DNA of 64,000 nt from a virus (IMGVR_UViG_3300043773_002546:124001-188000); one strand, 5' to 3'. Positions 18,154-61,513 are shown, counted from the first letter of the stretch. Notes: generated from the letters alone by a model not told the origin. Made by a program: numbers and translations.

Positions 18154-21100
18154 ATGCCAGATCCGATCAATCTAGCGCCCGCTCAGCCTCCGCAGCGCGC
18201 ATTCGGCGACGTTAACGCACTGCGCAATAATATCTTTGAGCGGTCGTTACAACACGCCTCGACGCTCGAGCCTATCAAGAATGACCTGTACACGCTCCAG
18301 CTGAGCGACGTGCAGTACAAGGGCCCGGAGCGCTACACGAAGGCCGACCAGAAGAAAGCCGTGCTCACTCGCGGCTCGTTGGCCCGCAAGCTTGTGGGCA
18401 CCTGGAACCTCGTTGACAACAAGACCGGCCAGCAGGTTGCCCAGCGTCAGCAGACGATCGCTAGCGTGCCATACCTGACCGACAGCGGCACGTTTGTGAA
18501 CAAGGGCGTGGAGTACACCCTGGCGCACCAGATGCGGCTGCGGCCCGGCGTGTTCACCCGCGAGAAAGACAACGGCGAGCTAGAGGCGCATGTTAACGTG
18601 CTGCCCGGCAAGGGCCGCATGCACCGGTACTTCCTCGACCCGAAGACGGGCGTGATGAAGATCAACATTGGCCAAGCGCAGATTCCGCTTATGCCGCTCT
18701 TAAAAACGCTGGGCGTTAGCGAGGGCGATATTCGCAAGTCGTGGGGTAACGAGCTGACGGCCGTGAACATGCAGCAGGGCGACGCGGGCACGCTCGACAA
18801 GCTTTATCAGCGCCTGGTGTACAAGCAAGAGCCTGGCAGCGACGCCTTGGCCAAGCAGAAGGCCATCGCCGCTGAGTTCGCCAAGATTGAGCTGGACCCC
18901 GAGGTTACCAAGCGGACTCTCGGCCAGCCCTACACCCGCATGACGCCCGAGGTCATTCTGGCGACGACAAAAAAGCTCATTGCGCTAAACCGCAAGGAAA
19001 CCGACCCGGACGATCGCGATTCGCTGGCTTACCAGTCGGTCGTTGGCCCCGAGGACCTGCTCTCGGAGCGCTTTACCAAGGACAAGGCCACGCTGCGTCA
19101 GCTGCTCTGGAAAGCCACGGCCAAGAAAAGCCTCGACCATATTCCTACGGGCGTGTTCAACAAAGCGCTCAACGCCGCGCTGATCGGCTCCGGGTTGGGC
19201 AGCTCACTCGAGGAGATTAACCCCGCAGAGATCTTCGACCATCAGACCCGCGTGACGCGACTTGGCGAGGGCGGCATCGGCTCGCTCGACGCCGTGCCCC
19301 AGGAATCCCGCAGCGTGCAGCCAAGCCACTTGGGTTTTGTGGATTTTCTGCGGACTCCCGAGTCTGGCAAAGTCGGCGTCGACATGCGTTTTAGCCGCGG
19401 CGCCATGAAGGGCAGAGACGGCAAGATTTACACGCCAGTAGTGAACATGCAAACCGGCGCTACGGAGTACAAGACGCCCCAAGAACTGGCGGATACGCCG
19501 TTGGCTTTTCCTGGCGAAGAGAAGAGCAAGCTCCCGATGGTTGCGGCGCTGGTGGGCGGCAAGATGAAGTACGTCCCCCGTGAAGAAGCGCAGTTCTCGC
19601 TGCCGCACATGGACAACTCTTTTTCGGCGCTCTCGAATATGGTCCCCATGAAGAGCATGATGAAGGGACACCGAGTGATCATGGGCAGCCGCATGTTCAC
19701 GCAGGCACTGCCGCTGGTGGACGCCGAGGCGCCGCTGGTGCAGTCCGCCCGGGCCGACAACCCCGGTGAAAGCCACGAGGACGAGATGGGCGGCAAACTC
19801 GGCGCCGTCCGTGCCGACGTTCACGGCCAGGTGGTCTCTGTCTCGTCTGATGAGATCGTCGTTCGCGACCGTGACGGCAATAAGAAAAGCATCGAACTCT
19901 ACAACGACATGCCGTTTAACCGGAAGACTTTCTGGACGCAGAAGCCCACGGTTCAACCCGGCGATACGATCAAGCCCGGCCAGCTGCTCGCGCATTCCAA
20001 CTTCACTGATAAGCAAGGAACAGCGGCGCTGGGCAAGAATCTCCGTGTGGCGTATGTGCCCTTCCGCGGCAAGAACTACGAAGACGCCGTGGTCATCAGT
20101 GAGTCAGCAGCCAAGCGCCTCACGAGCGAGCACATGTACCAGCACGAGGCCGAATGGGACGACCAGACCCACGTCGGCAAGAAGGCGTTTCTGTCTTTGT
20201 TTCCGGGCGAGTACGACAAGAAGGCGCTCGCCAACTTCGACGACAAGGGCGCCATCCAGAAGGGCACGGTCGTGAACTATGGCGACCCGCTTGTGCTCCA
20301 GGCCAAGGCGAAAGAGACAACTTACGGCAAGGTTCATCGCGGCCGCGCCGGAAACTTCACCAACGAGACACTCACCTGGGAGCACCACACGCCGGGCGTC
20401 GTGACCGACGTCGAACACACCGACAAGGGCGTCAGCGTTGTAGTCAAAAGCCAGGCGCAGATGGAGGTCGGCGACAAGCTCACCGGTCGCTTCGGCGACA
20501 AGGGCGTTGTGGCCGACGTGATTCCGGACCACCAGATGCCCCAGGACAAAGACGGCAATCCGTACGAGGTCCTCGTCTCGCCGCTGGGCCTAATCTCCCG
20601 CGTGAACCCCTCGCAGGTCATCGAAGCCGCGCTGGGCAAAGTCGCTGCGAAGACCGGCCAGCCCTTCAAGCTCAAGGACTTCGATGACGAGAACGACCTG
20701 ATTGAGATGGCGCAGCGGGAGCTGGCTAAGCACGGGTTGAGCGATACCGAGGACCTCACCGACCCGGAGACCGGGCGAAAGATCAAAGGCGTGCTCACCG
20801 GCAGCCGCTTCTTTATGAAGCTCCATCACACGGCCGAGGGCAAAGGGCAGGGCCGCGCGATGGGCAGCTATACCGCCGAGGGCACTCCGGCCAAGGGCGG
20901 CAGTGAAGGCGCCAAGCGCGTCGGCATGCTCGACCTGGGCGCGCTTTTGTCCCACGGCGCCGGAAAGGTCATCCGCGACGCCAAAATGGTCCGCGGCCAG
21001 GCTAACCCCGAGTACTGGTCGCAGTTCATGGCCGGGTATACCCCGCCGCTGCCAAAAGTCCCGCACGTCTACGAGAAGTTTGTCGGGCAGCTCAAAGCTT

Positions 21101-22527
21101 CTGGCATTAACGCTGTCCGCAGCGGGACGCGCACGAACATCATGGCGTTAACCGACAAGGACGTCGAGCAACTGGCCGGAGACCGCGAGATCACCAGCTC
21201 CGACACGGTCGACTGGAAGGGCAAGCTCAAGCCGATTAAGGGCGGACTGTTTGACGAGACGCTCACCGGCGGCCACATGGGCAACCGCTGGAGCAAGATT
21301 ACGCTTCACGAACCGATGCCCAACCCGGTCATGGAAGAGCCCATCCGCCGCACCCTGGGCCTGACCGAGAAAAAGTTTCGCGCCGTGCTGTCCGGGACTG
21401 ACACGCTGCGCGACAAGACCGGCCCGCAGGCAATCGCCGAGGCCCTTGGTGCGATTAGCTTGCCCAAGGCAATCGAGCAGTGCCGCGAGGACATCAAGTC
21501 GGGCCGCAAGACCCTTCGCGACGCCGCAGTGCGCCGCTTGGGGTACTTAAAGTCCGCCGAGGCCGCGGGCGTGCATCCCAAAGACTGGATGCTCACTAAG
21601 ATGCCGGTTTTGCCGCCGATGTTTCGCCCCGTCTCGACGATGGGCGCCAAAAAGCTGCCCTTGGTAGCCGACGCAAATTACCTTTACAAAGAGCTCCTCG
21701 ACAGCAACAACGCGCTCAAAGACGCTTCCGGCGCGTTGGCCGAGTACAGCGACGAGCGGCTAGGACTTTACGATGCCATGAAAGGCGTGACCGGGCTGGG
21801 CAGTCCCACGCAGCCGAAGAATCAGGAACGGCAGGTAAAGGGCTTCCTGCAGCACGTTTTTGGCTCAAGCCCGAAGTACGGCACCGTACAGCGCAAGCTG
21901 CTTTCTACGACCGTGGACCTGGTCGGCCGCGCGGTAATTACTCCTAACCCGGACTTGGACATGGATGAGGTCGCTTTGCCCGAGGACAAAGCCTGGGAGG
22001 TGTACAAGCCCTTCGTTGTCCGCGGGCTAGTCAGGCGCGGAATGCCGCGCATGCAGGCCCTGGACGCCGTCGAGCAGCGCAACAAGGCCGCCGCTGCTGA
22101 ACTTCAGGGCCAGATGAGTTCTCGGCCAATCGTTATTAACCGTGCGCCCGTGCTGCATCGATACGGTATGATGGCGTTTTATCCAAAGCTCACCAAAAAC
22201 AAGGTTATGGAGGTCAATCCGGTCATTACCAAGGGCTTTAACGCCGACTTCGACGGAGACGCGATGCAGTATCACGTTCCCAGCACAGAGGACGCCGCCA
22301 AGGAAGCCGTGGAAAAAATGCTGCCCAGCAAAAACTTGTTCGCGGCCGCCAGCTTCAAAGCGCACTACGTGCCGCAGGCGGATTTCCAGACAGGCGTTTA
22401 CTTGGCATCTAGCCGGATTGACAAGAAAGCCAAGCCGCGTATTTTTCGTACCAAGCAGGAAGCCCTACACGCCTATCGCCGCGGCGAGATCGACGTCGAC
22501 ACCCCGGTAAATATTGTCGAGAGTTAA
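18154..22527 (+). CDS. RNA polymerase beta subunit fused to N-terminal half of beta-prime
   Basis: The product has 1457 residues. Residues 1-1005 align by eye with bacterial RpoB. Landmarks are FVNKGVEYTLAHQMRLRPGV (protrusion), VQPSHLGFVDFLRTPESGK (fork), KNYEDAVVISES (about 640), DKLTGRFGDKGVV (about 774) and KLHHTAEGKG (about 889). From about 1015 it continues as RpoC: GGLFDETLTGG, MPVLPPMFRPV, RKLLSTTVDLVGRAVI, INRAPVLHRYG, and the catalytic NADFDGD at 1363-1369 with its three Mg-binding Asp. It stops about 90 residues later, before the bridge helix. The beta-prime N-terminal zinc ribbon is absent. The remaining beta-prime is encoded at 23504-25408. Catalytic residues look intact, so an active polymerase is likely. 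Confidence 0.93.
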   Translation: MPDPINLAPAQPPQRAFGDVNALRNNIFERSLQHASTLEPIKNDLYTLQLSDVQYKGPERYTKADQKKAVLTRGSLARKLVGTWNLVDNKTGQQVAQRQQTIASVPYLTDSGTFVNKGVEYTLAHQMRLRPGVFTREKDNGELEAHVNVLPGKGRMHRYFLDPKTGVMKINIGQAQIPLMPLLKTLGVSEGDIRKSWGNELTAVNMQQGDAGTLDKLYQRLVYKQEPGSDALAKQKAIAAEFAKIELDPEVTKRTLGQPYTRMTPEVILATTKKLIALNRKETDPDDRDSLAYQSVVGPEDLLSERFTKDKATLRQLLWKATAKKSLDHIPTGVFNKALNAALIGSGLGSSLEEINPAEIFDHQTRVTRLGEGGIGSLDAVPQESRSVQPSHLGFVDFLRTPESGKVGVDMRFSRGAMKGRDGKIYTPVVNMQTGATEYKTPQELADTPLAFPGEEKSKLPMVAALVGGKMKYVPREEAQFSLPHMDNSFSALSNMVPMKSMMKGHRVIMGSRMFTQALPLVDAEAPLVQSARADNPGESHEDEMGGKLGAVRADVHGQVVSVSSDEIVVRDRDGNKKSIELYNDMPFNRKTFWTQKPTVQPGDTIKPGQLLAHSNFTDKQGTAALGKNLRVAYVPFRGKNYEDAVVISESAAKRLTSEHMYQHEAEWDDQTHVGKKAFLSLFPGEYDKKALANFDDKGAIQKGTVVNYGDPLVLQAKAKETTYGKVHRGRAGNFTNETLTWEHHTPGVVTDVEHTDKGVSVVVKSQAQMEVGDKLTGRFGDKGVVADVIPDHQMPQDKDGNPYEVLVSPLGLISRVNPSQVIEAALGKVAAKTGQPFKLKDFDDENDLIEMAQRELAKHGLSDTEDLTDPETGRKIKGVLTGSRFFMKLHHTAEGKGQGRAMGSYTAEGTPAKGGSEGAKRVGMLDLGALLSHGAGKVIRDAKMVRGQANPEYWSQFMAGYTPPLPKVPHVYEKFVGQLKASGINAVRSGTRTNIMALTDKDVEQLAGDREITSSDTVDWKGKLKPIKGGLFDETLTGGHMGNRWSKITLHEPMPNPVMEEPIRRTLGLTEKKFRAVLSGTDTLRDKTGPQAIAEALGAISLPKAIEQCREDIKSGRKTLRDAAVRRLGYLKSAEAAGVHPKDWMLTKMPVLPPMFRPVSTMGAKKLPLVADANYLYKELLDSNNALKDASGALAEYSDERLGLYDAMKGVTGLGSPTQPKNQERQVKGFLQHVFGSSPKYGTVQRKLLSTTVDLVGRAVITPNPDLDMDEVALPEDKAWEVYKPFVVRGLVRRGMPRMQALDAVEQRNKAAAAELQGQMSSRPIVINRAPVLHRYGMMAFYPKLTKNKVMEVNPVITKGFNADFDGDAMQYHVPSTEDAAKEAVEKMLPSKNLFAAASFKAHYVPQADFQTGVYLASSRIDKKAKPRIFRTKQEALHAYRRGEIDVDTPVNIVES

Positions 22528-22541
22528 ACACGGAGGTTTAC

Positions 22542-23273
22542 ATGTTCACGGTTAATCCCGAACTGATTTCGCTCGCCCGCATGCGGTTCGAAAAGTCGGC
22601 CGTTGTGCCCCCGGGCGGCGGCGACCCGGCCATGATGGGCGGCGGCGCACCTCCGATGGACCCGGCGGCTATGGGCATGCAACAGCCTGCCGCCCCGGTT
22701 GACCCGGCTCAGGCGGCTATGGGCGCCGCTCCTCCTGCTGACCCCTCTCAGGATCCAACCGGCGCGATGGCCGCCGCAGCCCCGCCAGCACCGGCCCCGA
22801 TGCCTCCGGCGACGCCCACCGCCGCCGCTCCTGGCCAGCAGAAGCTCAAACCCGAGCAGATGATGCAGATGCTCGACTACCGGCTTTACAACATGCAGCA
22901 GCAACTCACGGCGATCATGAACGCCATGGGCGTGCAGGTCCCGCCGGAATCGCTCGTGCTACCCCCGGGCACGACCGGCGCGCCCCCGGCTGAGACGGCG
23001 CTGCCCGGCGGCCCGATGGCGCCGCCCCCGCCGCAGCAGGACCCGAACGCCCCGAGCGGCCCGCAACCTCCGGGCGGCCCGCTCCCTCCCGGCGGCCCGA
23101 TGGATCCCAGCCAGATGCCCATGGACCCTAACGCGCCGAAGCAGGCCAACTGGTGGGATGTGGGGCGCCCCGTGGACAAGGCCGTGCACAGCAACCCCGA
23201 CGCCCCGACGGACCTGCAGACCAAAGCGGCTGCAATCGCCGCGCTGTGTCGGAGCATGACGCGTGCGCGTTAA
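22542..23273 (+). CDS. Pro/Gly/Met-rich low-complexity protein between RNAP genes
   Basis: The product has 243 residues, behind a strong GGAGG site. Residues 22-105 and 140-205 are dominated by Pro, Ala, Gly and Met. A short amphipathic helix (LDYRLYNMQQQLTAIMNAMG, about 112-131) lies between and could form a coiled coil. The C-terminal 35 residues look folded. It sits between the two polymerase genes, so a structural role for polymerase packaging or assembly is possible but unproven. Confidence 0.65.
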   Translation: MFTVNPELISLARMRFEKSAVVPPGGGDPAMMGGGAPPMDPAAMGMQQPAAPVDPAQAAMGAAPPADPSQDPTGAMAAAAPPAPAPMPPATPTAAAPGQQKLKPEQMMQMLDYRLYNMQQQLTAIMNAMGVQVPPESLVLPPGTTGAPPAETALPGGPMAPPPPQQDPNAPSGPQPPGGPLPPGGPMDPSQMPMDPNAPKQANWWDVGRPVDKAVHSNPDAPTDLQTKAAAIAALCRSMTRAR

Positions 23274-23511
23274 ATTAACTCACAACCTGCAGCCTCACGA
23301 ACAGTCGGCTCAGTCGATCATTCTGTATGACGATCTGGGAAATCCGATTTTCGTGGCCATGCAGCTTGATGAGTCGATTATCTACGCCGACGCCGGAGAG
23401 CCTGATTTTCACGCTATGCTTCGCGCCTTGGGCGTGAACAAAACAGTCATCGTCAACGAGATCACGCCAAAGCCCGTCAAGAACATGCTGTGGACGCCGG
23501 GAAATGCTTAA
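23263..23511 (+). CDS. Small protein between the RNAP genes
   Basis: The product has 82 residues; the GTG start overlaps the preceding stop by 11 bases, and its own stop overlaps the beta-prime C-terminal gene by 8, so the three are probably translationally coupled. It is beta-strand-rich (QSIILYDDLGNPIFVAMQ) with no zinc or HTH motif. No similarity to omega or alpha subunits is apparent. Function unknown. Confidence 0.65.
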   Translation: MRVKLTHNLQPHEQSAQSIILYDDLGNPIFVAMQLDESIIYADAGEPDFHAMLRALGVNKTVIVNEITPKPVKNMLWTPGNA

Positions 23512-25408
23512 AACCACGCTTGGTCAAGTACTTTTAAACGAAACGCTTCCGGAAGATCTCCGGGACTACAATCGCGTTTTGACTAAAAAAGACATGGCCA
23601 AGCTGGCTACGGACCTAGCCGAGAAGCACCCGGACAAGTACCGCCAGGTCATGAAGCGGCTGCACGACATCGGCCATGAAGCGGCTTACACCACCAATGG
23701 CCTTTCCTTCGGTCTCAAAGATATCAAACCGACGTTAGCAGCCCGCACCGCCCAGTTGCGCGTACACAAAGCGCTGCAGGGAATTCTCGCCGATAAAGGC
23801 ATCGACGAAAAAGCCCGCACTTTGAAGATCCTTAAGCTGGCCTCCGAGGCGCAAAAGTCTCTCGTCGAGGACGTCTACAAAGAGGCCGAGAGCGCCGACA
23901 ACCCGCTGGCGCATCAGGTTCGCGGCGTTTCGCGCGGCAACAAGTACAGTTTGAATTCTCTGATCGGCGCCGACATGCAGTACGTCGACCATAAGAACGA
24001 CCCGATTCCGATTCCTGTAATGCGTGGCTACGGCCAAGGCCTGCGCCCTGTGGAGTACTTCGCCGGGGCCTTCGGCACCCGCAAGGGCGTCATGGACCTG
24101 AAGACAGCAACTGCCGATGCCGGTTTCTTCGGCAAGCAGCTGGCGCAGATGACGCACAGACTTTTAGTGACCGACGACGACGACAAGGACGAAGAGCGCA
24201 ACGCCACCGCCCACGACCGCGGCTTTCCAAGCGACGTGGACGACCCAGATAACGAGGGCGCGTTCTTGGCGCGGCCCGTCGGCCCATACAAGCGCAACAC
24301 TCTTTTGACGCCGAAGATTCTCCGCGAGCTCAAGGAACAGGGCGTCAAAGACATCCTGGTACGCAGCCCAACCGTGGGCGGCCCAGAGGACGGCGGCGTG
24401 TACGCTAGGGACGTTGGCTACAGGGAAAAGGGCAAGCTCCCGCCCGTAGGCGACTACGTGGGCATCGCCGCGGCTCAGGCACTTTCGGAACCGGTGACGC
24501 AGGCGCAGATTAGCTCCAAACATTCCGGCGGCGTGGGCGGCGCAGGTTCAATCTCTGGCTTCAAGGCTATTAACGCTTTGGCGCAGGTCCCCAAAAAATA
24601 CCCCGGCGGCGCTGCGCACGCCCAGATTGACGGCACGGTTCAAGAGGTGCGCCCCGCGCCCCAGGGCGGCTTTTACGTGCAGATCGACGGGCAGGAGCAC
24701 TATGTCCCCACAGACCGCGAGGTCTCGGTCAAAAAGGGCCAGACCCTCGAGGCAGGAGACACGATTTCCAGCGGCATGCCCAACCCCGGCGAAATCGTCC
24801 GCCACAAGGGCATCGGCGAAGGGCGCAGGTATTTCGTTCAGGCCATGCGTCAAGTGCTGCAAAACTCTGGCGTGTCGCCACATCGCCGTAACATCGAACT
24901 TCTCTCGCGCGGATTGGTAAATCATGTTCGCATGACCGACGAGCACGGCGACTATGCGCCGGACGACATCGTGCCCTACTCGATGATCGAACGGAGTTGG
25001 ACGCCGCGGTCGGGCAGCGTGACCGGCGCGCCGAAAAGCCTTTCTGGGCATTATCTAGAGCGCCCCGTACTGCACTACTCAGTTGGTACAAAAATCGGTA
25101 AGGGCGTGCTTGCGAACCTGGAAAAATACGGCATCAACAATGTCGAGGCCCACAAAGAGCCGCCGCCGTTTCAGCCGGAAATGGTTCGCGGCATGGCAAA
25201 TATCTCTAACGACCCCGACTGGATGACCCGCATGCTCGGCTCGTACCAGCAGAAGGGCCTGTTAAACAGCGTACACCGCGGCCTATCCAGCGATACATCC
25301 GGATCGAGTTTCGTTCCCGCGCTGGCCCGCGGCGAAACATTCGGTGTTTCCGGCGCCACGAGCGGATGGCAGCCGCAGAACGATTTAGGTAGGATGAAAG
25401 GGCCCTAA
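23504..25408 (+). CDS. RNA polymerase beta-prime C-terminal half
   Basis: The product has 634 residues. It begins with TTLGQVLLNETLP, matching the point in RpoC just after the DFDGD domain. Further landmarks are MKRLHDIGHEAAYTTNGLSF, a bridge-helix region PVEYFAGAFGTRKGVMD (about 186-202), FFGKQLAQMTHRLLVTDDD, and the trigger-loop start YVGIAAAQALSEPVTQAQIS (about 317-336) ending in KHSGG. The four-Cys zinc site that precedes the trigger loop in cellular enzymes is replaced by RSPTVGGPEDGGVYARDVGY and has no Cys. The C-terminus is shorter than in RpoC. It completes the subunit begun in 18154-22527. Confidence 0.92.
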   Translation: MLKTTLGQVLLNETLPEDLRDYNRVLTKKDMAKLATDLAEKHPDKYRQVMKRLHDIGHEAAYTTNGLSFGLKDIKPTLAARTAQLRVHKALQGILADKGIDEKARTLKILKLASEAQKSLVEDVYKEAESADNPLAHQVRGVSRGNKYSLNSLIGADMQYVDHKNDPIPIPVMRGYGQGLRPVEYFAGAFGTRKGVMDLKTATADAGFFGKQLAQMTHRLLVTDDDDKDEERNATAHDRGFPSDVDDPDNEGAFLARPVGPYKRNTLLTPKILRELKEQGVKDILVRSPTVGGPEDGGVYARDVGYREKGKLPPVGDYVGIAAAQALSEPVTQAQISSKHSGGVGGAGSISGFKAINALAQVPKKYPGGAAHAQIDGTVQEVRPAPQGGFYVQIDGQEHYVPTDREVSVKKGQTLEAGDTISSGMPNPGEIVRHKGIGEGRRYFVQAMRQVLQNSGVSPHRRNIELLSRGLVNHVRMTDEHGDYAPDDIVPYSMIERSWTPRSGSVTGAPKSLSGHYLERPVLHYSVGTKIGKGVLANLEKYGINNVEAHKEPPPFQPEMVRGMANISNDPDWMTRMLGSYQQKGLLNSVHRGLSSDTSGSSFVPALARGETFGVSGATSGWQPQNDLGRMKGP

Positions 25409-25462
25409 GACGCTAAATTAGTGTCCAGATCTGGTTAATTTGCTCGCCGCACGGAGGTGGCT

Positions 25463-27844
25463 GTGTACAACCGCAAGAATTCTCAGCCTGAGTGGAAGCA
25501 CTGGCTCAAGGTTGCTCGTTCCCACGACCGCAGCCGTACCAAGCAAGCCGATATTGGCGGCAGCGGTGACAGCGCCTCGTTTGAGCAGGCGTTTTCAAAC
25601 CTGGCGCACGCTTACCTCCGCGACAGCGCCCCCAAGCTGCTGGACCATGAAATCGGTTTCCAGCTTTTGGACCGCAATAACGAGAACACTAAGGCAGTGG
25701 GCGTTTTTGCGTTTAAGGTCGGTTCCCAGTGGCTGTATGCCCCGGTGTTCTTCCTTAACGGTGAGCTCAAGGGCCACGAACTCCTGTACATCAAGAACCA
25801 GGACATGTTCGTGCCGTTGAAGGAAAACTGGGTTAACTACCTGATTAACCGCAAACCCAACATCCTGGGCAGCGGCGTTGATCGAAATCTGGGCGCGCGC
25901 GGTCAGCGACAGCCTGACTTTACGCAGCTTTCGCGCAGCCCGGCCAAGTTTGGTTCGGCGCAGCCGACTCTCAAGGAAATGATGACGGCCGCGATGGGCG
26001 CGTTTGCCAAGACGGCCACAATGAACACCGCCGCCGCGTTTGCTGACATGGGCAAGTCGCTTGACCTGGGTAAGTTCCTTAAGGAAGCCCGGCTTGAGAC
26101 AATTAACATGCTGGTGAACACGTTCAAGCACGCTCCGGCCCTGGCCAAGGCGTTTGACGAGTTCCACGGACTGGACACGGTTAAGGAAGCTATCGCGCTG
26201 GCTAAGGCCCGCGCGGCGCAGCCGAAGATCGCTAGCGTGCTGGAAAGCGCGCCAAACAAGTCCGAGGCGACCAAGAGCCTGAAGGTGATCACGCTGGACG
26301 TGACCCTGCAGACCAAGCTGCCGCCCGAGACCACCGAAGAAGATCAGGAAAAGCTGCTGCGCGACGGCGTGCTGATCCTCGACCAGCGCGACCGCGACAA
26401 CGTGTCTATTCCCTACAACATCCAGGTCGAGAAGAAGCTTTTCAACCCGACCTGCTCCGGCCTGTACGACATTATTGTCAAGCCCAACAGCGTGGAGCGC
26501 GTCTACATCGCCGTGTTTCCGGTGGGCCCGGCCAAGCGCAGCGATTTCGTCACGGTGGTGCGCACCGAAGGCAAGCCGACGTGGGTCAACACCCGCGCCG
26601 ACCGCGTCTTCTGCCTGGCGCACGTCGACGGAAAGGATTACGACGCGTGGTTTAACGGCCTGCCCGACGCCGACAGCGCCAGCAAGTCTGGCCGCTACAT
26701 GGCGGTCGGCAAGAACGGCGACGCCACGGTTCCCTTCCGCGTCATCCGCGAATTGGGCAGTACGGAGTTCAGCGGCACGAGCTATGAAGTCCACATGGAG
26801 GACCATTCGAAGTTTCCTCCCAAGGGCCACATCTCGCCCTGCTGCTACAGCGACCCGCTGAATTACGACAAATACCGCGACGGCGAGCGAATTCATCTCA
26901 AGGGTAAGAAGGGCAGCCAGCTCCGTGCGAGCATGGGCGACATCTTCGTTCCCGAGAGTTTCAAGCTGCTTAAATGCGCCCCGGGCGAAGACGACGTACC
27001 GGCCAGCGAGCTGGGCAACGGCCCGGCCTGCGGCTGTGGCGAGAGCGAAGACCCGCCGCTGCTCCCCGGCACTCTGGCCGACGCGCAGCTTGAGATCATG
27101 GGCAAGACGGCAGCGTTGGAGGTATACCACAACGGCACCGAGGTGGTAATCAACAAGGCAGCGGCTATGACGCCAATCAAGGCGCTGGTCACGCTTGTCG
27201 AGCATCACGGCCTGCGTGAAGACGCCGCCCGCGAGATCCTCAAAACAGCGGCTGCCAAGCGGAAGTACAGCGGTCGGATTAAGTACGCCAATCCGTACGG
27301 CTCGCCGATGATGATTAATGACGCGCCCGGCGCCCCGACTGATCCGGGCCCGGTAATGGGCGGCGAGACGATTATGGGCTCCAGCGTCCCGACGCAGCTG
27401 GGCATCGACATGGCTATGCCGGTTTCCGGCATGAGCGCGTCTCAAACGGACCGGCAGATCTACAACCCCAACACGCAGCTGGACAACAAGGCTATCCAGC
27501 AGGTGATGGAGGCCTCGCAAACGGGCCAGAAGGAAGTCTTCGACACGGCGATGATTGGCAGCATGCTGCGCGCTGTTCGCGACGACTCGATGGTCGACCG
27601 TTATATGGGCGAGCTCACCAAGGGCCTCGACAAGCTCGGCCGAATTTTGTTTATGTTCTACTGGCACGGCGATCGCTTCGCCGACCGTTACGGCAAAGCC
27701 GACATGCCGGAGCTAGAGGATTCGCTGCGCAACGCCTTCGAGATGTTGGGCGACGTCATCCTCTTCCTTAAGCAGAAGACCATCGAGCCGTATCCGGAAG
27801 AAGCCGGTGCCGACATTGATCTCAGCAACGTCGCAAACGCATAG
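25463..27844 (+). CDS. Large conserved virion protein, unknown role
   Basis: The product has about 793 residues. GTG 25463 lies 5 bases after GGAGG; GTG 25457 is in frame but overlaps that site. Residues 40-130 form a folded domain (VGSQWLYAPVFFLNGELKGH). A central part (about 280-500) is beta-rich and includes DFVTVVRTEGKPTWVNTRAD. A CGCGESED cluster lies near 530. The C-terminal 150 residues are helical and acidic. Its place before the capsid genes would suit a portal or an internal protein, but I see no portal motif. I do not recognise the family. Confidence 0.7.
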   Translation: MYNRKNSQPEWKHWLKVARSHDRSRTKQADIGGSGDSASFEQAFSNLAHAYLRDSAPKLLDHEIGFQLLDRNNENTKAVGVFAFKVGSQWLYAPVFFLNGELKGHELLYIKNQDMFVPLKENWVNYLINRKPNILGSGVDRNLGARGQRQPDFTQLSRSPAKFGSAQPTLKEMMTAAMGAFAKTATMNTAAAFADMGKSLDLGKFLKEARLETINMLVNTFKHAPALAKAFDEFHGLDTVKEAIALAKARAAQPKIASVLESAPNKSEATKSLKVITLDVTLQTKLPPETTEEDQEKLLRDGVLILDQRDRDNVSIPYNIQVEKKLFNPTCSGLYDIIVKPNSVERVYIAVFPVGPAKRSDFVTVVRTEGKPTWVNTRADRVFCLAHVDGKDYDAWFNGLPDADSASKSGRYMAVGKNGDATVPFRVIRELGSTEFSGTSYEVHMEDHSKFPPKGHISPCCYSDPLNYDKYRDGERIHLKGKKGSQLRASMGDIFVPESFKLLKCAPGEDDVPASELGNGPACGCGESEDPPLLPGTLADAQLEIMGKTAALEVYHNGTEVVINKAAAMTPIKALVTLVEHHGLREDAAREILKTAAAKRKYSGRIKYANPYGSPMMINDAPGAPTDPGPVMGGETIMGSSVPTQLGIDMAMPVSGMSASQTDRQIYNPNTQLDNKAIQQVMEASQTGQKEVFDTAMIGSMLRAVRDDSMVDRYMGELTKGLDKLGRILFMFYWHGDRFADRYGKADMPELEDSLRNAFEMLGDVILFLKQKTIEPYPEEAGADIDLSNVANA

Positions 27845-37051: not shown

Positions 37052-37090
37052 ACCAACCCTTAATCACCACGGAACATGGAGGTTCCTTCA

Positions 37091-38017
37091 ATGCCCACTC
37101 AGCAAGAAATCCAGCTGCTCAATGAAACGCTCTTCGAGCAGCTCGACACCCCCGGCATGCAGAAGCAGGCCGTGGACGCAGTTAACGACTTCACGCGCAC
37201 CAAGATGCGTGAAGACGGGTTCTATCGGCGGATCATGCCGCCGCTCACCATCACCAATGACGAGCTCGACCGCCAGGTCGACACGGACAAGCCGGTGAAG
37301 GTGGTCGACAAGGAACCCGATTCCCCGGCGGCTGTGTCGCTCCCGTTCGCGACGCTCCCGATTAACTTCTACATCCGTGGCCCGCGCTACCGCGTCATGT
37401 TTGACCGGATCGTGTCGCCCCGCGCTGTGAAGGACGTCGACGAGCTGCGTACGTACGTGATCGACATCCGTCAGGTTCTGTCGGACAACATGATCAAGGA
37501 CATGCTTGCCGAGGAAGACTCCAAGTTCATCCAGGCCTTCAACGCCGTCCTCCCGACTCCGGGCGTGGCGAACGTTGCTTCGGGCGTGGTGCAGTACGAG
37601 GAGATCCACGGCGGCATCACCCGTGAGACGCTGGTCGACGCGCTGAAGGTTATGCCGCGTACGCCGTCGCACTTTGAGGTCGAGACTTGCCTCGTGAATA
37701 ACATCACGATCAAGGAACTCCTCAAGTTCGGCCGCGACGAAATGGGCGGCGACTTCTCGCAGGACATCGTCAAGAACGGCTGGGCCGAGACGAACTTCCT
37801 GAACTGCCGCTGGATCGTCACGATCAAGCGCGATCTGGTTCCGGACGACTCGCTGTTCATGTTCGCGTCGCCGAAGTTCATCGGCAAGAACTACGAGCTC
37901 GAGCCCACCACGATGTACATCCGTCGTGAGGCTTACATGCTCGAGTACTTTGCCTACAACACGCAGGGCGGCTCGTTCGGTCACACGAACGGTCTGGCCC
38001 GCGTGGACTTCAAGTGA
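37091..38017 (+). CDS. Major capsid protein (HK97-fold candidate)
   Basis: The product has 308 residues from ATG 37091, 10 bases after GGAGG. It has an N-terminal helical arm, then an HK97-like alternation of helices and strands. The C-terminus (TTMYIRREAYMLEYFAYNTQ, then GLARVDFK) resembles the P-domain end of HK97-type capsid proteins. It is followed by a 13-bp hairpin and preceded by protease, scaffold and decoration candidates, which is the usual order. Codon use looks highly biased toward GC-ending codons, consistent with strong expression. Confidence 0.75.
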   Translation: MPTQQEIQLLNETLFEQLDTPGMQKQAVDAVNDFTRTKMREDGFYRRIMPPLTITNDELDRQVDTDKPVKVVDKEPDSPAAVSLPFATLPINFYIRGPRYRVMFDRIVSPRAVKDVDELRTYVIDIRQVLSDNMIKDMLAEEDSKFIQAFNAVLPTPGVANVASGVVQYEEIHGGITRETLVDALKVMPRTPSHFEVETCLVNNITIKELLKFGRDEMGGDFSQDIVKNGWAETNFLNCRWIVTIKRDLVPDDSLFMFASPKFIGKNYELEPTTMYIRREAYMLEYFAYNTQGGSFGHTNGLARVDFK

Positions 38018-58098: not shown

Positions 58099-58914
58099 AT
58101 GCCCAGCAACACCAGCAAACCATCGCCGTCAATCCTTGATGACGTGCCCATGCCTTTTTCGCAGCCGCCGAAGATTCACGGCGTTGGCGATGATTTTCTA
58201 CCCGCGTACCAGACCTGGCAGACGCAACGCACGCCGCAGAACAACACAGCGCTGTTAAAAACCTTGCAGCCGGTCTTGGATACGGCCGTCACCAGTTACG
58301 CGGGCGGCAACCAGAGCCCGACAATCAAGTCGCGGGCCAAACTCATGGCGCTAAAAGCCATGGAGAGCTTTGACCCTAACCGCGGCAACGTCCGCACCCA
58401 TCTGCTCAGCCAGCTCCAGAGCCTGCGGAGGCTTTCGGCGCAAGAGCAGAACATCATCCACCTCCCTGAGCAGGTCGGCCTGGACTTCCAAAACCTCAAC
58501 GAGAGCGAGAACGAGCTGCGGGACAGCATGGGGCGCGACCCGACTGACGAGGAGCTGTCTAATCACACGAACCTTTCCGTACGTCGAATCCGCAAGATCC
58601 GCAAGTTCCACCAGCCGATCTCCGAAGGCACAGTCGTCGGCCAAGAGAGCGACGAGAACGACCCGACGGACATCGCTAGCCAAGTGCCCGGCGGGGGCCA
58701 TCGCGCAGCGGACGCCTGGATGAACTTTGTCTACGACGATCTGGGCGCTACTGACAAGTTGATCATGGATATGACCTTGGGCCGCAACGGCAAACGCCGC
58801 ACGCCGACTCAGGAGATCGCCCGCAAACTGGGGATTACTCCCGGCGCCGTGAGCCAGCGTGCGGCCAAGATTCAAACGATGCTCGACAAGCGGTACACCC
58901 AAGGCGGATTCTAG
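58099..58914 (+). CDS. Sigma-70-family RNA polymerase sigma factor
   Basis: The product has 271 residues. Region 2 is recognisable: SRAKLMALKAMESFDPNRGN (about 78-97), with the FDP-x-RG that precedes the core-binding/-10 region. Region 3 pattern: GRDPTDEELSNHTNLSVRRI (about 145-164). Region 4 contains the -35-recognition HTH, TPTQEIARKLGITPGAVSQR (235-254). Region 1.1 is absent and the size fits group 3 (FliA-like) factors. It is the third gene of the hub/wedge run, so it may be expressed late and could be packaged with the phage polymerase. Promoters it reads are unknown. Confidence 0.8.
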   Translation: MPSNTSKPSPSILDDVPMPFSQPPKIHGVGDDFLPAYQTWQTQRTPQNNTALLKTLQPVLDTAVTSYAGGNQSPTIKSRAKLMALKAMESFDPNRGNVRTHLLSQLQSLRRLSAQEQNIIHLPEQVGLDFQNLNESENELRDSMGRDPTDEELSNHTNLSVRRIRKIRKFHQPISEGTVVGQESDENDPTDIASQVPGGGHRAADAWMNFVYDDLGATDKLIMDMTLGRNGKRRTPTQEIARKLGITPGAVSQRAAKIQTMLDKRYTQGGF

Positions 58915-59869: not shown

Positions 59870-61513
59870 ATGGCGCTTGAAGTTACCAATCTTGATGAGC
59901 TGAACACGGACACGGTCAACGCCCTGTTCGCCACGTTCACCCAGTACATGCAAGAGCGGCACCCCGAGGTCGAGCTGACTCGCGGCGTGTTTCACGACCT
60001 TGTGCTGTACTTTAACTCGGTGCTCAACGCCACCGTGCGGGAGAACATCGCCCGGGTCCGGCAGAGCAACAGCTTGCTGCAGATCAATGCCAACCCCGCG
60101 CTGGCCGACAACACGCTGGTGGACCAGGTGCTCTCGAACTACAACCTGGTGAGAGACACCGGCAGCGCCGCGGTGGGCGACGCCACGATCGTCCTAAACC
60201 TGCCGGTGAGCACGCGAATCTCTGCGGGAATCACCTTTACCGCCGACGACGTGAAGTTCCGCCCCACGGGCGAGTTCATTGCCCTTCCGCCGGGCTCCGT
60301 TCCAACGCAGGCTAACGAGCGGGTGATGATCGCCGTGGGCGACGGCACCTACGCCGTGAACATCCTCGTGGCCGCGACAACCGCGGGACTGGCGGGCAAC
60401 ATTCGTCGCGGCACGTCGCTAATTCCAGACAGCGTGCCAAACAACATGCTCTCGGCTTTTGCCGCTGTGGACTTCGTCAGCGGCCGCGCGCCACTAGCGA
60501 ACGCTGACTACGTCGCCCGGCTGGCTGACGCCCTGGCGAGCAAGACTGTGGGCGGGCGGCAGAGCTACGCCGCATCGATCCGCGGCCAGGCTGCTTTTAA
60601 GAACATTCCCCACCTGTCAATTCTGGGCTGCGGCGACCCCGAGCAGATGCGCGACCAGCACAGCTTGTTTCCCGTCTCCGGCGGCGGCAAGGTGGACATT
60701 TACGTCCAAAGCCACAGCAACGCCCAGCAGCGAGAGCACTTGTTGTCGGCCAGTTACGTCGGCCCCGGGGCCACGGGCACGATCTGGCAGATTGTGCTGG
60801 GCCGCGAGATTGCGGGCGGGATCTACGAGATCGCTCGCGTAGCGCAGCCTTTGAACCTTACCAGCACCGGTTACGCCCTGACCCAAGACATCCGGGGCGT
60901 GGACTTGACCGATTTGGACTTTGCCCCGGACATTGTTTCCTACGAGGAGGGCGCTTACAGCCGCTACCAGACGGCCGTAATTCGTTTCGAGGACACCGAC
61001 ACTGCGCCGACCGGCCTGACTCCCAACGTCAGCCGGGCGCAGTATGCGGTGACAACCGTAGGGTTGCCGCTAATTAACGACGTGCAGGATTACCTCAGCA
61101 GCCGCGACGTGCGCAGCCGATCGGCGGACGTGCTCGTGAAGGCCGCCGTGCCTTGCTTCACGAAGATTTCATTCTCGATCCGCAAAGAGGCAAACACCAC
61201 CGAAATGGATCTTGCGCCAATCAAGCAAGCCATCGTCGACGCAGTGGCCAAGGTCGGCTTTTCCGGACAGCTCCACGCCTCGATCATCAGCGGCGCGATT
61301 CACCAGCGCCTCACCGGCCGCCAGGCCGTGGGCCCGATCGACATGTTCGGCCGCATCCGCCGCCCGGACGGTCATACGGTCTATCTGCGCAATAACACGC
61401 TCTTGGAGATTCCCCACGACCCCGCGCGAATGATCACCGGACGGACCACGGCGTTTCTGGTGGGCCTGGACGACGTCTCCATTTCCACCGTAACCGCGGG
61501 CTTTGCCGACTAG
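59870..61513 (+). CDS. Baseplate J-like wedge protein
   Basis: The product has 547 residues. Baseplate_J pattern: an N-terminal helical part (DTVNALFATFTQYMQERHPE), the beta region VSTRISAGITFTADDVKFRP and AAATTAGLAGNIRRGTSLIP (about 165-187), then a long wedge-type domain. The C-terminus includes SFSIRKEANTTEMDLAPIKQ. These proteins (P2 gpJ, T4 gp6) form the wedge ring. Confidence 0.75.
   Translation: MALEVTNLDELNTDTVNALFATFTQYMQERHPEVELTRGVFHDLVLYFNSVLNATVRENIARVRQSNSLLQINANPALADNTLVDQVLSNYNLVRDTGSAAVGDATIVLNLPVSTRISAGITFTADDVKFRPTGEFIALPPGSVPTQANERVMIAVGDGTYAVNILVAATTAGLAGNIRRGTSLIPDSVPNNMLSAFAAVDFVSGRAPLANADYVARLADALASKTVGGRQSYAASIRGQAAFKNIPHLSILGCGDPEQMRDQHSLFPVSGGGKVDIYVQSHSNAQQREHLLSASYVGPGATGTIWQIVLGREIAGGIYEIARVAQPLNLTSTGYALTQDIRGVDLTDLDFAPDIVSYEEGAYSRYQTAVIRFEDTDTAPTGLTPNVSRAQYAVTTVGLPLINDVQDYLSSRDVRSRSADVLVKAAVPCFTKISFSIRKEANTTEMDLAPIKQAIVDAVAKVGFSGQLHASIISGAIHQRLTGRQAVGPIDMFGRIRRPDGHTVYLRNNTLLEIPHDPARMITGRTTAFLVGLDDVSISTVTAGFAD

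Follow-up and report, generated by a model that had tools for sequence, protein, structure and literature searches.

The virus record IMGVR_UViG_3300043773_002546, a 197,309-bp entry of the IMG/VR database, contains two genes which together encode the large subunits of a multisubunit RNA polymerase (RNAP), with the whole of beta and the start of beta-prime combined in one protein and the remainder of beta-prime specified by a second gene. Both lie in the window, by which we mean the 64,000-nucleotide stretch (bases 124001-188000 of the record) that was analysed here and whose positions are used throughout. The two genes and the parts of the active site assigned within them are as follows.

18154..22527, plus strand: RNAP beta fused to the N-terminal part of beta-prime, 1457 amino acids (open reading frame with ATG, Pfam and PDB matches, AlphaFold model)
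20476..20502, plus strand: beta active-site lysines K775 and K783, E. coli beta K1065 and K1073 (alignment with E. coli RpoB/RpoC and other bacteria)
22240..22260, plus strand: catalytic loop NADFDGD, residues 1363-1369, with D1365, D1367 and D1369 (translation, alignment)
23504..25408, plus strand: C-terminal part of RNAP beta-prime, 634 amino acids (open reading frame with ATG, Pfam and PDB sequence matches, model)
24047..24151, plus strand: bridge helix, residues 182-216 of the 634-amino acid protein (predicted helix, aligning to E. coli beta-prime ~770-804)
24458..24586, plus strand: trigger-loop helices and tip, residues 319-361 of the 634-amino acid protein (alignment, model)

The 1457-amino acid chain comprises all of beta (residues ~1-990) and about 455 residues of beta-prime (~997-1457), while the 634-amino acid protein supplies the remaining beta-prime, namely the bridge helix, the trigger loop and the C-terminal region. 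Pfam analysis identified Rpb2_6 (1e-52) and Rpb1_2 (3.7e-25, the best stretch being residues 1323-1387) in the first protein, along with weaker matches to Rpb2_3, Rpb2_2 and Rpb1_1, and Rpb1_5 (1.9e-22) in the second. When compared with solved structures, the 1457-amino acid protein matched bacterial beta chains with E-values down to 1e-67 (for example residues 72-987 on 8gzg_C) and aligned with beta-prime over residues 1062-1454 (8e-50), and the 634-amino acid protein aligned to beta-prime residues 664-1184 of 5tw1_D (1.7e-36). The join between the subunits is short, as the last beta motif, VYEKFVGQLKASGIN (ESFNVLLKEIRSLGIN in E. coli), is followed within ~10 residues by the first beta-prime motif, NIMALTDKDVEQ (IKIALASPDMIR in E. 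coli), and the chain terminates 88 residues past NADFDGD at a position aligned to E. coli beta-prime 568/569. Much of this had been proposed in an earlier, sequence-only reading of the locus, which described a whole, undivided beta, unlike that of phiKZ-type enzymes, continuing into the N-terminal part of beta-prime, with motifs close to those of cellular RpoB/RpoC, a stop about 90 residues after the catalytic loop and just past the catalytic double-psi beta-barrel (DPBB), and a second gene holding the bridge helix and trigger loop; the Pfam searches which it suggested, the PDB matches, the alignments and the model of the second protein bear out all of these points.

The key catalytic residues that were checked are present in beta and in both parts of beta-prime. 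The aspartate triad is intact by alignment, as the same reading had held, beta-prime R1330 is present in the 1457-amino acid protein, and H340 of the 634-amino acid protein corresponds to the E. coli trigger-loop residue H936. With its DPBB lysines, its DxDxD motif, a bridge helix and a trigger loop, the enzyme has the defining features of a multisubunit DPBB RNAP. The AlphaFold model of residues 306-1457 of the fused chain (mean predicted local distance difference test score, pLDDT, 83.6; predicted template modelling score 0.72) matches bacterial beta chains, and that of the 634-amino acid protein alone (pLDDT 83.7) matches beta-prime chains with an E-value of 3e-28.

The distribution of this arrangement was established by searching the proteins of 50,697 phage records and by five scans of IMG/VR, from which, once near-identical sequences were removed, 133 distinct RNAPs remained, each aligned over more than 1300 of the 1453 positions of the model. 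Exactly the two-gene layout seen here was present in 81 of the 133, and beta and both parts of beta-prime were found in a single chain of ~2,000-2,150 amino acids, on tailed-phage contigs, in a further 26 (examples being L108, L109, L111, L114, L117, L122, L128, L131, L133, L171, L175, L190 and L207); the first part carried an extra break or insert in 10, and the second part was off the contig or not found in 16. Since the halves matching the two proteins are separated by at most 20 residues in the 26 single-chain relatives, the two proteins of the window phage belong together. All 81 distinct two-gene sequences share the end point of the fused gene (model position 1451-1453), with the second gene at least 542 bp downstream in every case; the stop is thus not a sequencing error, and the gene arrangement is genuine and conserved. 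As a control, the same pipeline called separate beta and beta-prime at 67 bacterial loci and a fusion at none. Among cultured phages, the fused gene and a separate second gene occur in Salmonella phage Arash (gp206 and gp216) and Vibrio phage D69, and Vibrio phages D148 and D181 have the same layout with an intron-like insert containing a homing endonuclease in the first gene. The N-terminal zinc site of beta-prime is missing from the window phage, from Arash and from the single-chain relative L109. A host-cell origin of the locus was rejected, as phage genes lie on all sides, and the best 80 matches listed from 84,980 cellular genomes, obtained with phage-biased search patterns, show at most 28% identity. 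Three records labelled as phage, Acinetobacter MD-2021a, Staphylococcus SA 1306 Kay and Enterococcus Efs 1-1-1, were rejected as sources of phage RNAPs, as they have separate rpoB and rpoC and look like host DNA (ribosomal protein genes adjoin rpoB in MD-2021a), and served as bacterial outgroups instead. The viruses that carry this rearranged polymerase are tailed, infect bacteria and make up a large group, for the most part uncultured. The suggestion that the window phage represents a new class of polymerase architecture must be dropped, as the layout is found in cultured phages and in about 80 viral contigs, whose group stands near the mReC phages described in 2020.

The origin of the split was addressed by building a tree by maximum likelihood (LG+G4, 2000 columns) from 57 RNAPs of viruses and 18 of bacteria, the latter being the only cellular group included. 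The viral enzymes form one clade apart from the 18 bacteria, with a Shimodaira-Hasegawa-like approximate likelihood ratio test (SH-aLRT) value of 100. When the tree is rooted with bacteria, its deep viral branches are single-chain forms, with L133 first, and the cut forms make up one clade (SH-aLRT 100) nested among them. Inside the cut clade the three-piece forms, Arash relatives such as L141, L143, L149 and L152, in turn form a clade (100) whose second cut falls at model position ~1084, ~40-90 residues into beta-prime. A single change of state suffices to explain single-chain and cut forms, and the position of the former on deep branches suggests that the layout arose most simply by one cut in a fused ancestor; the simplest history would thus be a fusion, then a cut past the catalytic DPBB, then another cut among the Arash relatives. 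The reverse order, in which two genes came first and were later fused in the single-chain relatives, accords with the separate beta and beta-prime of bacteria, with the frequency of gene fusion and with the length of the deepest single-chain branch, but we regard it as unlikely given that the two-gene forms are nested among single-chain ones, that a forced single-chain clade is rejected (approximately unbiased test, p-AU 9.5e-5) and that the fusion of beta to beta-prime is shared by the two forms.

The surroundings of the polymerase genes bear on their possible role. The neighbouring features are listed here.

22542..23273, plus strand: 243-amino acid Pro/Gly-rich protein between the polymerase genes, without Pfam or PHROG match
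23263..23511, plus strand: 82-amino acid protein between the polymerase genes, overlapping both neighbours by a few bases
25457..27844, plus strand: homologue of Arash virion structural protein gp218 (phmmer 1e-9)
37076..38017, plus strand: homologue of Arash major capsid protein gp226 (phmmer 5.6e-34; no Pfam match)
58099..58914, plus strand: divergent sigma-70-type factor, homologue of Arash virion protein gp10 (Pfam, PHROG and Arash matches)
59870..61513, plus strand: Baseplate_J-like protein, homologue of Arash gp13 (Pfam, match to Arash)

The two small open reading frames between the polymerase genes recur in most close relatives, and nothing matching the 243-amino acid protein turned up around the RNAP genes in Arash or in the Vibrio D phages. 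The gene order is collinear with the structural genes of Arash (gp218, gp222, the major capsid protein gp226, gp233, gp234 and gp236, then gp10, gp13 and gp14), and the RNAP genes are situated inside the virion module in both phages. The candidate sigma factor matches Sigma70_r3 above the curated cut-off (2.1e-9), Sigma70_r4 just below it (6.7e-5), a PHROG sigma factor family (4e-10) and Arash gp10 (1.3e-18), and sigma homologues are also present in Arash and the Vibrio D phages, isolates which carry the same RNAP. Neither alpha nor omega was recognisable in the record of the window phage, the controls for these searches being positive, and a single Rpb2_6 match puts the count of multisubunit RNAPs in the record at one; a search for a T7-type RNAP gave no match, with its positive control silent too.

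According to the Arash report (PMC10585845), mass spectrometry of Arash particles yielded 3516 spectra for gp206, the highest of all proteins, 1210 for gp216 and 467 for the sigma homologue gp10. The Arash-like gene order, these virion data, the sigma homologue, the lack of recognisable alpha and omega and the single RNAP lead us to read the locus as encoding a virion polymerase with its own sigma, that is, a two-chain, alpha-less core which would serve early genes together with the phage sigma factor and whose layout derives from one cut in a fused ancestor, a reading to which we assign a probability of roughly 0.7. In such a scheme the first chain would contribute beta and the catalytic DPBB half of beta-prime and the second the bridge-helix and trigger-loop half, the pair adopting the usual enzyme fold with neither alpha nor omega. 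The polymerase would be produced alongside the virion proteins, packaged and injected with the DNA, whereupon the phage sigma would direct it to early phage promoters and infection could begin without host RNA polymerase; its ancestor would have been a phage with fused beta and beta-prime, cut once past the catalytic DPBB. Presence in virions holds for the relative Arash, and packaging in the window phage is suggested by analogy with it.

Several points weigh against this reading. For the window phage, activity, assembly, packaging, use of the sigma and early transcription are all predictions from the genes, and the virus record could be an incomplete genome. Sigma region 2 is not recognisable in the protein encoded at 58099-58914, and a crude scan of intergenic DNA yielded no early-promoter motif, as nothing stood out apart from words rich in G+C and the palindrome TGATATCA. 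Two trigger-loop residues differ from the bacterial consensus (M932 to I, R933 to S), and the cysteines of the second zinc site, retained in Arash and in single-chain L109, are lost in the window phage, owing to which the enzyme may behave unusually. The rooting of the tree, moreover, depends on bacteria alone, on LG+G4 and on the long-branched single-chain L133. The palindrome is itself over-represented in the intergenic DNA of the record, occurring 8 times as compared to 0.4 in shuffles, both strands counted.

Two other roles deserve to be weighed against that of an early virion polymerase. The enzyme could instead be an active, non-virion RNAP made after infection for middle or late genes, its detection in Arash virions representing carry-over; the Arash authors themselves raise the possibility that abundant proteins may just persist in purified particles (PMC10585845), and the enzyme, as the only multisubunit RNAP found in this genome, could serve any stage. 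This we consider unlikely, as the gp206 spectra exceed those of the major capsid protein in the same Arash data, the core, the second chain and the sigma were found together, and the RNAP genes are located within the virion module in the window phage as well as in Arash. Less probable still is a hybrid polymerase which relies on host alpha, omega or sigma: its sequence is nearer to bacterial beta and beta-prime than phiKZ enzymes are, and the record provides no phage alpha or omega, yet the phage encodes its own sigma homologue and phiKZ-type cores function without alpha or omega (PMC7598289).

That the split is an artefact of assembly, frameshift, intron or intein has next to no likelihood and was rejected: in relatives these genes do contain inteins, one of them split, as well as an intron-like insert, but the end point is constant in 81 distinct sequences, in all of which the genes lie 542 bp or more apart, the split does not coincide with an intein end, and cultured phages share the layout. 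The RNAP genes of the window contain no intein-like insertions. Among relatives, in-frame insertions with intein-like ends (C at the start, N followed by S or T at the end) were seen at ~10 sites in both RNAP proteins, including the trigger-loop region (beta-prime C-terminal part ~319-331) and a site beside NADFDGD (~1370); the carriers are L033-L035, L037, L061, L076, L102, L103, L105, L110, L120, L123-L125, L170 and others. An apparent natural split intein interrupts the beta part, after KGG..G and before SKR, in L087 (9875-13021 and 14935-16692, with a 637-amino acid gene between the halves) and L088 (9911-13027 and 13428-15173). Its N-half closes the first gene (GCFLAGTHLHT...) and its C-half opens the next (VYDITVADLHLYGVYGVLVSN directly before S), from which it follows that the products should splice into the fused chain. 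Insertions of 318-432 amino acids in beta (model ~205-246) without intein-like ends occur in the first gene of L077, L079 and L089, that of L079 containing a HAD-phosphatase-like DLDGTIA motif, and in L069, L078, L087, L088, L099, L101 and L176 the beta-prime C-terminal protein has a 300-700-amino acid C-terminal extension, possibly a fusion to the next gene. The intron-like insert with a homing endonuclease (L003, 9440-10393; Vibrio D181 and D148) lies in the fused gene, homology resuming downstream. In L112 (13600-15494) the gene is broken at NADFDGD and the second frame resembles an endonuclease-bearing intein with the C-terminal end LSN before T, its N-terminal half not being at the expected place, and in L132 (7944-11885) the fused frame ends at model position 1332, just ahead of the catalytic loop, with no continuation within the next 8 kb.

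No description of the combination of fusion and split, of its conservation or of the single-chain relatives was found in the open-access literature (subscription papers and preprints lying outside this scope). The single-chain relatives on deep branches and the divergent sigma without recognisable alpha or omega were not encountered in the papers searched, and the series from single chain to cut forms, together with the sigma, is the part most worth specialist attention. These viral relatives bear on the cutting and joining of the catalytic core of the cellular enzyme, as one family spans the entire series, from uncut chains through those cut once or twice to a split intein expected to restore a cut chain. 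The series makes it testable, within one alignable family, whether split phage polymerases are relics of a pre-cellular, multi-piece enzyme or were derived by cutting. If packaged with its own sigma, the enzyme would also be a bacterial-type polymerase that is complete in itself and lacks alpha, and as such could be useful for mechanistic studies. To the wider proposal of a lineage descended from a single-chain enzyme, cut after the DPBB and again in a sublineage, with a packaged core that lacks alpha and omega but has its own sigma, unlike phiKZ (no sigma) and N4 (a single-subunit RNAP), we attach even odds.

Among known systems, the closest described group is that of the mReC phages (Weinheimer and Aylward 2020, PMC7481178), metagenomic tailed phages whose bacterial-like beta and beta-prime form a clade apart from bacteria; in the main text of that paper the two are regarded as subunits, and a fusion or split is not described for mReC. 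Like them, the window phage is a viral contig whose beta and beta-prime are found by cellular profiles (Pfam and PDB sequences here, COG in the paper) and whose RNAP clade is separate from cellular ones (SH-aLRT 100, 18 bacteria). Its major capsid protein homologue (37076-38017) has no Pfam match, the mReC capsid family being PF07068/VOG11186, and a major capsid protein was called in just 8 of 97 mReC contigs (PMC7481178); the large terminase subunit of the window phage matches PF05876 only, while the Arash homologue matches both PF05876 and PF03237 (PF03237/VOG01069 in mReC). With two features shared and the capsid family unmatched, we do not formally file the window phage as a member. Single-chain L127 and L131 come from metagenome 3300017989, the source of two mReC example contigs. 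The crAss-like phage RNAP and YonO resemble the fused protein in having both catalytic barrels in one chain, but there the whole enzyme is one chain, too divergent for cellular profiles (PMC7481178) and unmatched here. In the yeast killer-plasmid proteins K2ORF6p/K2ORF7p, very divergent and encoded by eukaryotic cytoplasmic elements, beta is likewise fused to part of beta-prime and a small separate subunit supplies the beta-prime C-terminus, but the cut is further downstream, separating regions a15 and a16 of beta-prime, a position shared with some archaea (PMC6211774). The virion and non-virion RNAPs of phiKZ-like phages, of which the virion version is packaged, share with the window enzyme a beta-prime cut past the catalytic DPBB and the absence of alpha and omega (PMC7598289); they differ in that beta is split too, beta and beta-prime are apart, and there are two RNAPs and no sigma (PMC7598289; PMC13282480), whereas the window phage has an unsplit beta and one RNAP with a sigma homologue. 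In cyanobacterial RpoC1 (gamma)/RpoC2, the break in beta-prime lies past the catalytic DPBB and ahead of the bridge helix, with beta separate (PMC7598289), and gamma extends ~70 residues beyond the last aligned position (554 of 625), so that the cut residue differs. As phiKZ-like RNAPs and cyanobacterial RpoC1/RpoC2 are split after the same DPBB (PMC7598289), the position of the cut is not new in kind. Arash (OQ632216), whose authors, in the accessible text, name the proteins beta and beta-prime without remark on the fusion (PMC10585845), has different genes between its two polymerase genes, but the same two-gene architecture, with gp206 and gp216 showing 33% and 25% identity to the window proteins and a nearly identical cut site, at E. 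coli beta-prime 551/552 in Arash as compared to 568/569 in the window phage.

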